This document shows, one piece after another, positions 53,578 through 54,624 of a stretch of 64,000 nt of DNA. The notes under the pieces are model-generated. The model was not told where the DNA came from. It searched no databases and saw only the letters and a list, made by a program, of their open reading frames with translations. The position numbers and the translations under genes were made by a program. Numbering within the stretch: the first letter of the stretch is position 1; each line of letters starts with the position of its first letter. Origin of the DNA: Thermobifida halotolerans (GTDB taxonomy: Bacteria > Actinomycetota > Actinomycetes > Streptosporangiales > Streptosporangiaceae); the NCBI RefSeq assembly GCF_003574835.2, contig NZ_CP063196.1, positions 5,270,001-5,334,000 on the forward strand, in the 5' to 3' direction.

Positions 53578-53616
53578 AAAAATGGGTTGCTGATTTTCTG
53601 CGACCCGTTCTAGGCT
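53578..53616 (+). promoter_or_regulatory. whiB7 promoter with WhiB7-type AT element
   Basis: AAAAAT (53578-53583), three bases, TTGCTG as -35 (53587-53592), an 18-bp spacer and TAGGCT as -10 (53611-53616). An AT-rich run directly before the -35 is the known WhiB7 contact site in mycobacterial and Streptomyces WhiB7 promoters, so autoactivation is likely. Confidence 0.65.
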
Positions 53617-53692
53617 TGAAGCCATCGAGTTCGCGCTCGTCACGGGAGAAGATCCCGGTGACCGCACACAGTAAGGGAGGTGCTCCGATCAA

Positions 53693-53923
53693 ATGGCAAC
53701 GCTGATTACCGGACTTGATATGTCCACGGATGCCTGGAGCGCCGCCTACGGCAGTGGTGCGCACGCGAATGTGTCGTATGCGTCTGGCAGTCTCTCGACC
53801 ATCGGCGAATCAGTCGAGCCGAGAATGCGTCGATTCAAGCACCGTCAGGAACCGCAGTTCGCAGGAGCCCGGCGCCCTTTGGGCGCGGTGGGGAAGTGTC
53901 CACTGAGTTACCCGGTCCAGTAG
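53693..53923 (+). CDS. 76-codon upstream ORF in the whiB7 leader
   Basis: The ATG at 53693 has GGGAGG about 12 nt upstream. The peptide (MATLITGLDMSTDAWSAAYG and on) resembles nothing I know and ends with TAG at 53921-53923, 24 nt before an intrinsic terminator stem. whiB7 leaders of other actinobacteria carry a regulatory upstream ORF. A second in-frame ATG at 53720 is an alternative start. The encoded product is probably less important than where the ribosome sits. Confidence 0.5.
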   Translation: MATLITGLDMSTDAWSAAYGSGAHANVSYASGSLSTIGESVEPRMRRFKHRQEPQFAGARRPLGAVGKCPLSYPVQ

Positions 53924-53949
53924 CCGAGGCCGGGTAGTCCTCCCAGTGG
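53900..53949 (+). promoter_or_regulatory. Nested leader hairpin around the uORF stop
   Basis: CCACTG (53900-53905) pairs with CAGTGG (53944-53949), and TACCCGG (53909-53915) with CCGGGTA (53930-53936). The uORF stop codon lies in the apical loop. Its outer arm shares two bases with the terminator stem. Separately, GTGGGGA (53888-53894) can pair with TCCCCAC (53957-53963) inside the terminator 5' arm, a mutually exclusive alternative. Confidence 0.45.
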
Positions 53950-53984
53950 CCGCGGGTCCCCACACATGGGGCCGCGGCCTTTTT
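53948..53984 (+). terminator. Intrinsic terminator in the whiB7 leader (attenuator)
   Basis: GGCCGCGG (53948-53955) and CCCC (53958-53961) pair with GGGG (53968-53971) and CCGCGGCC (53972-53979), loop ACACAT, followed by five T. It is one of the few hairpins in the window with a real T-run, and it lies 144 bp before whiB7, inside its leader. Confidence 0.75.
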
Positions 53985-54127
53985 GGTGTTCCGATCCCGC
54001 ACTCTTCGGTGAAAGAGCGGATCTGTCGGACTCACGCAGGTCAGGGCCCCGAAAAACCGGATCGGAAAAGATCCGGTGTCCGTTGTCGCCTACCGCGTTG
54101 ATCACCAGAGAAACAGGGAGGACACCG

Positions 54128-54406
54128 ATGCTTGCGTCGGTCCTTGAGTCCCCGTGGCTGGAGGGAGTCGAGATCCCGTGCCGTTCCCAGCCCGACCTCT
54201 TCTTCGCCGAGGCCCCGGCCGACGTCGAGGCGGCCAAGGCGCTGTGCGTGGACTGCCCGGTCCGGGAGCAGTGCCTCGCCGACGCGCTCGAGCGCCGCGA
54301 GCCGTGGGGGGTGTGGGGAGGTCAGCTACTGGTGAGCGGCCAGGTGGTCGCCCGTAAGCGCCCGCGTGGCCGTCCTCGCAAGAACGCCGAGCCGATCGCG
54401 GCGTAA
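54128..54406 (+). CDS. whiB7: WhiB7 transcription factor
   Basis: This 92-aa protein has four cluster-binding cysteines (Cys18, Cys40, Cys43 and Cys49), GVWGG at 61-65 and a C-terminal AT-hook RGRPR at 80-84. That combination is specific to WhiB7. It binds sigma-A region 4 and AT-rich DNA near the -35 to switch on intrinsic antibiotic resistance, including its own gene. The ATG has GGGAGG 7 nt upstream. The long structured leader (about 500 nt) with uORF and terminator is treated separately. Confidence 0.95.
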   Translation: MLASVLESPWLEGVEIPCRSQPDLFFAEAPADVEAAKALCVDCPVREQCLADALERREPWGVWGGQLLVSGQVVARKRPRGRPRKNAEPIAA

Positions 54407-54471: not shown

Positions 54472-54624
54472 ATGCTGCTGCACGGACTCAACCAGTCACC
54501 GAGGACTCCCGACCCCAAGCGTCAGCGCCAGCGGATCGACGCCCGGCACCTCCGGGCGCAGTTGCGTGAACAGCGTCGCCTCGAAAGGTCGACCACACAA
54601 ACACGGGACACACACCGCTATTGA
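54472..54624 (+). CDS. Possible 50-aa basic protein after whiB7
   Basis: The frame from ATG 54472 to TGA 54622-54624 encodes a very basic peptide (DPKRQRQRIDARHLRAQLRE in the middle). Codon third positions are mostly G/C, as in real genes here. The ribosome-binding site is weak (AAAGAGA about 6 nt upstream). The spacing to whiB7 is 65 bp, so it could be co-transcribed. No homologue comes to mind. The remaining 269 bp up to 54893 show only the next gene's -10. Confidence 0.35.
   Translation: MLLHGLNQSPRTPDPKRQRQRIDARHLRAQLREQRRLERSTTQTRDTHRY

Follow-up and report, generated by a model that had tools for sequence, protein, structure and literature searches.

In actinobacteria, intrinsic resistance to antibiotics that target the ribosome is driven by WhiB7. 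In the scheme outlined for whiB7/wblC in passages of several papers, translation of an upstream open reading frame (uORF) leads to a terminator and stalling on the uORF leads to an antiterminator, which is made of overlapping uORF and terminator sequences (PMC11550727, PMC9618640, PMC13393426, PMC10727445). A further paper describes whiB7 attenuation as conserved in two mycobacteria (PMC4128351) and, for Streptomyces coelicolor, a WblC motif is placed 3 bp upstream of a -35 element with a spacing of 16-19 bp (passages of PMC7157823).

We analyzed a 64,000-nucleotide stretch of Thermobifida DNA (the window), whose host belongs to the family Nocardiopsidaceae in the order Streptosporangiales (NCBI taxonomy) and in which a whiB7 gene is preceded by a candidate attenuator. 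As far as the passages describe the whiB7/wblC leaders of mycobacteria and S. coelicolor, the leader resembles them in its length, in an AT motif 3 bp before the -35 element, in a uORF preceded by a Shine-Dalgarno (SD) sequence and followed by a Rho-independent terminator, and in a predicted antiterminator that overlaps the uORF and the terminator (PMC11550727, PMC4128351, PMC9618640, PMC10727445, PMC7157823). In these known systems stalled ribosomes induce the gene, and by analogy they would do so here. The three helices described below are set beside whiB7/wblC by scheme only; the passages give no helix-level structure.

Two other systems share the general layout. The trp-like ilvB1 attenuator of Mycobacterium tuberculosis also combines a uORF, a terminator and an antiterminator and, in the passages at hand, a ribosome at its stop codon masks about 26 nt and blocks the antiterminator; its sensor has specific regulatory codons (LVVI), whereas the uORF here is long and its peptide unconserved and, unlike in ilvB1, the outer strand of the predicted antiterminator lies beyond the footprint of a stop ribosome (PMC13236596). 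The ARE-ABCF leaders of S. coelicolor (are5sc, tiaA) likewise have a uORF-controlled terminator/anti-terminator, with a proposed response to ribosome-binding drugs; the uORFs described there have 3 and 9 residues and ribosome binding sites that overlap the anti-terminator, whereas the uORF here has 76 codons and the overlap is at its end (PMC12421871).

The mechanism of attenuation for whiB7 is thus not new, being described for mycobacterial and Streptomyces whiB7/wblC in the same passages. A first inspection of the window (the sequence-only reading) had called its pairing scheme new; this may hold for the helix-level, three-helix model. A literature search on covariation in whiB7 uORFs found no paper, although the structure may still be published, most subscription papers lying outside the search, and a search on transcription attenuation in Thermobifida returned none about whiB7, judged by title.

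The whiB7 leader of Thermobifida and its relatives

The leader is followed by a whiB7 orthologue, as in whiB7/wblC attenuators. NCBIfam models gave no match to this WhiB-family protein and the gene was named whiB7 because of its similarity to relatives, a C-terminal RGRPRK motif, which we take to be a WhiB7 label, and the leader itself. Among the best 80 of 149 relatives the nearest named ones are from T. cellulosilytica and T. fusca, and the protein is 91-99% identical in three further genomes of the same genus. The host genome has five other WhiB-like places, all far weaker matches than whiB7. Directly 3' of whiB7 lies a 50-aa basic ORF (54472-54624); relatives with 51-58% identity are found downstream of whiB7 in L012, L013, L015 and L016 (our locus numbers), and none in the other 45 loci searched, the closest Thermobifida included.

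Table 1. Features of the predicted whiB7 attenuator, in window coordinates
Feature	Position	Strand	Basis
AT-rich element AAAAAT	53578..53583	+	read from sequence; 3 bp before -35
Promoter: -35 TTGCTG (53587-53592), 18-bp spacer, -10 TAGGCT (53611-53616)	53587..53616	+	sequence and 50 leaders
Shine-Dalgarno of uORF, AAGGGAGGTG	53673..53682	+	sequence; SD and ATG in 50/50 leaders
Predicted 76-codon uORF (ATG 53693, TAG 53921-53923)	53693..53923	+	sequence and relatives
Outer helix, 5' strand GTGGGGA (predicted)	53888..53894	+	covariation, folding, non-family loop matching
Middle helix, 5' strand CCACTG (predicted)	53900..53905	+	covariation, folding
Inner hairpin, 5' strand, ending 3 bases before the uORF stop (predicted)	53909..53917	+	folding, alignment
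Inner hairpin, 3' strand (predicted)	53928..53936	+	folding, alignment
Middle helix, 3' strand CAGTGG, sharing its final two bases with the terminator foot (predicted)	53944..53949	+	covariation, folding
Terminator, 5' arm (8 + 5 pairs, 2-base bulge; predicted)	53948..53962	+	folding
Outer helix, 3' strand TCCCCAC: one bulge base, terminator upper stem and one loop base (predicted)	53957..53963	+	covariation, folding
Terminator, 3' arm (predicted)	53967..53979	+	folding
U-tract, five T	53980..53984	+	sequence
whiB7 (WhiB-family regulator, 92 aa; start codon ATG at 54128)	54128..54406	+	Pfam PF02467 Whib, 60.6 bits vs cut-off 23.6

Leaders were compared within a family set of 50, consisting of the window, L007 and 48 loci (L010-L056, L059) that were picked by title and leader sequence from 80 named loci (the best 80 of the 149 relatives). 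The set includes one locus titled Glycomyces fuscus and a few metagenome bins; L008 and L009 were left out because they come from the same genomes as L010 and L011 (identical coordinates).

The AT element, the promoter and the 76-codon uORF reported by the sequence-only reading were all borne out when the letters were read directly (Table 1). In all 50 family leaders AAAA(A)T is followed by TTGC as -35 and by TAnnnT as -10, and this element and promoter stand 71-79 nt before the ATG of an SD-preceded uORF. The uORF start was taken in our script as an SD-preceded ATG in frame with the stop, so the open frame is partly there by construction; the steady distance to the promoter is not. AT motif and spacer in the window agree with the definition of the WblC motif in PMC7157823. 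By a generic sigma-70 consensus the leader promoter is weak, a simple scanner finding no consensus promoter.

Between the uORF and whiB7 there is a predicted Rho-independent terminator. Its place and its run of five T had been read correctly, but the even 12-bp stem had not: the stem is made of a block of 8 and a block of 5 pairs, 13 in all, and a bulge of two bases lies at 53956-53957. The 3' part of the leader (53870-53990) folds with z = -3.1, and 1 of 200 shuffles was equally stable. A generic terminator scan found 1 terminator against 0.8 expected by chance, in a different register from the leader terminator, and no Rfam family matched the window at gathering threshold. As the scanners gave no consensus promoter and terminator matches at chance level, the case rests on conservation. 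The terminator pattern and the core of the outer helix are kept in 50/50 family leaders, and the CCGCGG core of the terminator is present in 93 of the 102 loci examined and absent in 9.

Covariation of a predicted three-helix antiterminator

Two pairings had been proposed for the leader, one of GTGGGGA in the uORF with TCCCCAC in the terminator and a nested one within 53900-53949. Comparison of the 50 leaders supports the first as the outer helix of a predicted three-helix antiterminator with covarying pairs; the second is supported as a middle helix and an inner hairpin. All three helices are nested in the window and would occupy both ends of the terminator 5' arm; they are built from the last ~12 codons of the uORF and the RNA directly behind it. 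Comparative and computed evidence points to an antiterminator overlapping both uORF and terminator, as in whiB7/wblC. An overlap of no more than two bases between nested hairpin and terminator, noted earlier as a caution, applies if the middle helix is taken by itself; once the outer helix is included, 7 of the 13 terminator pairs are contested.

A further hairpin (53886-53892/53899-53905), present in the free-RNA minimum of the window, was considered as a possible conserved anti-antiterminator and set aside. RNAalifold retains a 3-pair version of it (GGG/UCC); we did not build on it because most Nocardiopsis leaders keep only about 3 of its pairs.

In the MAFFT alignment (A1), Thermobifida and Nocardiopsis are offset by one base in the outer helix and in the inner one, so that RNAalifold on A1 recovered the terminator, the middle helix in part and this same short hairpin, but not the full antiterminator. 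Flanking pairs were therefore counted by anchoring on the G-run and the C-run and in a covariance-model alignment, which leans towards the supplied structure. The pair beside the GGGG/CCCC core of the outer helix is formed in 50/50 leaders (C-G in 25, T-A in 22, T-G in 3); the second flanking pair is formed in 39 (G-C, T-A or C-G) and broken in 11. When the 3' letters were re-dealt, the observed outer pairing was reached in 0/20000 shuffles over all rows and in 214/20000 over the 7 distinct outer-helix combinations, permutation tests on pairings that ignore kinship. For the middle helix, most leaders have CCACGG/CCGTGG, whereas the four Thermobifida have CCACTG/CAGTGG; in Actinorugispora (L012) the two strands are mismatched.

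In the covariance-model alignment of the family (49 distinct rows), 95.8% of the three-helix cells are paired and the covariation score is 0.148, compared to 0.077 in shuffled and 0.010-0.039 in slid controls. Changes on both sides are seen in 5/17 pairs, a number reached in 8/500 shuffles; further pair types are no more numerous in the family than in shuffles (324/500 reach their count). Over 71 leaders, 21 of them outside the family set, 93.1% of cells are paired, the score is 0.324 compared to 0.121, and 14/17 pairs change on both sides, a count that is weaker evidence because the structure itself was used to fit the distant rows and L065 was matched on the opposite strand.

Kinship was taken into account with a tree built from the upstream region. 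On it the outer-helix combination changes 13 times and there are 1 to 4 independent pairs on supported branches, none contrary and some without a partner change. A simulation was run on 47 rows, L026, L054 and L038 having been dropped for long branches or poor filling; with the four outer positions evolving independently on this 47-leaf tree, the observed 83/94 paired cells were reached in 134/4000 runs (~3%). With kinship counted, the family alone gives moderate support for covariation of the predicted helices, and the agreement of three helices and of other groups raises it.

Leaders outside the family

Matching between the uORF end and the terminator loop was assessed in 43 non-family leaders, of which 23 (of 32) were found by protein similarity alone and 20 (L101-L120) with a structure model, R1, which already rewards these helices. 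Over all 43, mean binding of the uORF end is -13.2 kcal/mol to the terminator loop region of the same leader and -11.8 to those of other leaders, and the cognate mean was reached in 0/5000 permutations, 20 of the 43 being model-found. For the 23 protein-only leaders the values are -13.6 and -12.1 kcal/mol with 12/5000 permutations, or 61/5000 when the first 10 loop-side bases alone are used; these tests ignore kinship, the best duplexes lie partly outside the homologous place, and when the whole loop is used, the upper 3' strand of the terminator is open to pairing with the uORF end as well. Duplexes in three model-found leaders, CTGCG/CGCAG in L110, GTGCG/CGCAC in L119 and GTGCTGG/CCAGCAC in L115, are suggestive of matching between uORF and loop.

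Judged by their sequences, many of L063-L089 (Nocardioides and others) have the same switch, differently built. Their middle helix is CCTGGAG/CTCCAGG and directly overlaps the terminator foot, and the last residues of their uORF are ..WSPP or WSCP followed by 1-2 more.

A structure-model search of the host genome gave one match at E up to 1. Under stricter filters, a match at E <= 0.01 was returned for 114 of 200 genomes of the order, with one listed per genome; the surroundings of 20 of the 114 were inspected and 17 have a recognisable WhiB-like start downstream, a simple scan finding none downstream of L101, L114 and L120. On the single host match and these 20 surroundings, a second use of the switch elsewhere was rejected.

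Folding of the leader and position of the ribosome

Folding of RNA growing from 53880, sampled every three bases, gives the outer and middle helices values of at least 0.9 for 3' ends between 53963 and 53975; at 53978 it is the terminator that dominates. The finished terminator has -54.8 kcal/mol and the antiterminator -50.2 to -51.2, a difference of ~4 (3.6-4.6 by the helices enforced). The finished terminator being the more stable, the antiterminator must win in time, not in stability. Across the 50 leaders, with the ribosome upstream and the RNA 4 nt short of the terminator end, the outer helix exceeds 0.5 in 45/50 and the middle helix in 48/50; the complete terminator, by contrast, wins in 49/50 for the same upstream ribosome. 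When the ribosome is instead masked at the stop and the RNA is again 4 nt short, the terminator exceeds 0.5 in 48/50, only 8 bases upstream of the G-run being included.

Within the window the outcome varies with ribosome position. Over codons 1-60 the terminator stays at or below 0.40 at all 22 sampled positions, codons 64-69 give mostly terminator and codons 70-71 neither structure, while over codons 72-76 the result hinges on the footprint and on whether upstream RNA may pair. For a ribosome at the stop, two footprints give the terminator 0.82 and 0.70 with downstream RNA only, and 0.28 and 0.01 with upstream RNA allowed, the antiterminator standing at 0.98 in the last case; the model thus fails to switch off when the footprint is the narrower one and upstream RNA may pair. 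The earlier logic that an upstream stall frees the antiterminator is supported. The OFF state at the stop depends on the footprint, and shuffled sequences also block the terminator: 662/1000 shuffled upstream parts block the window terminator, and 268/1000 also switch with the mask. Folding energy hence does not discriminate and was dropped as proof of a switch.

The distance between uORF stop and G-run is 28 nt in 41/50 leaders and 31-37 nt in 9, and in the 50 leaders the stop lies 188-224 nt before whiB7. The idea that a ribosome reaching the stop would cover GTGGGGA fails, the assumed footprints spanning ~53903 or 53907 to 53932-53935. This strand stays exposed because the stop is at 53921 and GTGGGGA ends 27 nt before it. 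By the measure of trp-type masking, the outer strand (27-33 nt before the stop) is outside the footprint of a stop ribosome and the middle strand at its edge, and the outcome depends on the footprint assumed. The OFF step must therefore use loss of the inner hairpin together with the edge of the middle helix, or ribosomes crossing codons 64-69.

One could suppose that only the terminator matters in the leader: transcription would stop early, constitutively or with the help of Rho, the promoter's strength would set the read-through, and the upstream pairings would be incidental in a GC-rich leader. The 662/1000 shuffles that block the terminator and a tree-based null that is not extreme (134/4000) agree with such a leader; changes on both sides in 5/17 family pairs (8/500 shuffles) and 14/17 in the set of 71, covariation scores well in excess of slid controls, loop-uORF matching beyond the family and the near-constant position of the uORF stop all speak against it, and we consider it improbable. 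A uORF-controlled switch is retained as the preferred reading.

Conservation of the uORF

Across the 50 family leaders the uORF has 74-132 codons, and the other two frames over the same stretch are stop-free in 0/50 and 4/50. The window peptide is poorly kept, with a median identity to the 49 relatives of 0.14 (0.06-0.69) over residues 9-60 and of 50% over residues 63-72, and this better-kept C-terminal end is also the site of the antiterminator strands. In all six comparisons among the four Thermobifida uORFs, codon changes that alter the residue outnumber silent ones (17 to 9 in the closest pair, 35 to 8 in the widest); the differences are spread across codon positions 1, 2 and 3, with an excess at the third in the closest pair only (9, 8, 15). 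The peptide is nearly unconserved; to judge from these comparisons it seems to be the frame of the uORF, not its peptide, that matters.

This pattern weighs against an erm-like arrest leader, in which a specific nascent uORF peptide would cause stalling in response to one drug class. The length of the uORF would allow it, and relatives in the family share a C-terminal motif around G-x-C-P-R; that motif, however, coincides with the RNA helices, and over residues 9-60 a conserved peptide is not found, the changed codons mostly altering the residue, which makes arrest by a given peptide very improbable.

In composition, the 50 uORFs contain 16.1% glycine and 8.2% serine, compared to 8.3% and 4.4% in two neighbouring window proteins, and no TTA among 5435 codons (0/5435).

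RNA between the terminator and whiB7

The stretch 54040-54100, between the terminator and whiB7, is conserved across the 50 leaders; it might drift if attenuation were the only function. It contains the hairpin ACCGG..CCGGT, where 3/6 predicted pairs have changed on both sides (covariation term small, -0.12), followed by an invariant CGC within CCGCG(TTG).

That control acts mainly on whiB7 translation, RNA after the terminator hiding the Shine-Dalgarno, is hardly credible: an 8-base perfect complement, CGGTGTCC (54074-54081) with GGACACCG (54120-54127), touches the whiB7 SD and the post-terminator stretch is conserved and has a hairpin, but the complement is lost in several relatives (in the alignment, e.g. 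L012, L013, L036) and RNAalifold does not predict it. Such SD hiding could be an added layer on transcription attenuation, not a replacement for it.

A model for the whiB7 switch

Layout, covariation and the described whiB7/wblC scheme together support the earlier proposal of uORF attenuation before whiB7, and the leader is very probably a ribosome-mediated, uORF-controlled transcription attenuator of whiB7. In the proposed model, transcription would start at a WhiB7-type promoter and run through an SD-preceded uORF with no fixed peptide and then a strong terminator. When ribosomes flow freely through the uORF, they would either occupy its 3' end or disrupt the inner hairpin while RNA polymerase goes by; the antiterminator would not be assembled and transcripts would end near 53984. 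A stall anywhere before about codon 60, caused by an antibiotic or by amino-acid starvation, would let the three helices form before the 3' arm of the terminator; polymerase would then read through, and WhiB7 would activate its own promoter. Such a switch would be kinetic. A toehold for takeover by the terminator may be offered by the CCGCGG core of its arm, which is unpaired in the predicted antiterminator.

More tentatively, and as less likely than not, we suggest that several actinobacterial groups might share an undescribed RNA family with a three-helix antiterminator, in which the last codons of the uORF would dock on the upper terminator hairpin and loop bases left unpaired by the terminator would coevolve with uORF codons, a long, unconserved, peptide-indifferent 'timer' uORF sensing any loss of ribosome flow and not a given drug.

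The analysis provides a base-pair model of the whiB7 switch that names the uORF and terminator positions that would carry the signal, and Thermobifida as a non-mycobacterial case of whiB7 attenuation. The leader alignment is a starting point for building an RNA family, and the model explains how unrelated drugs and starvation could all induce whiB7.
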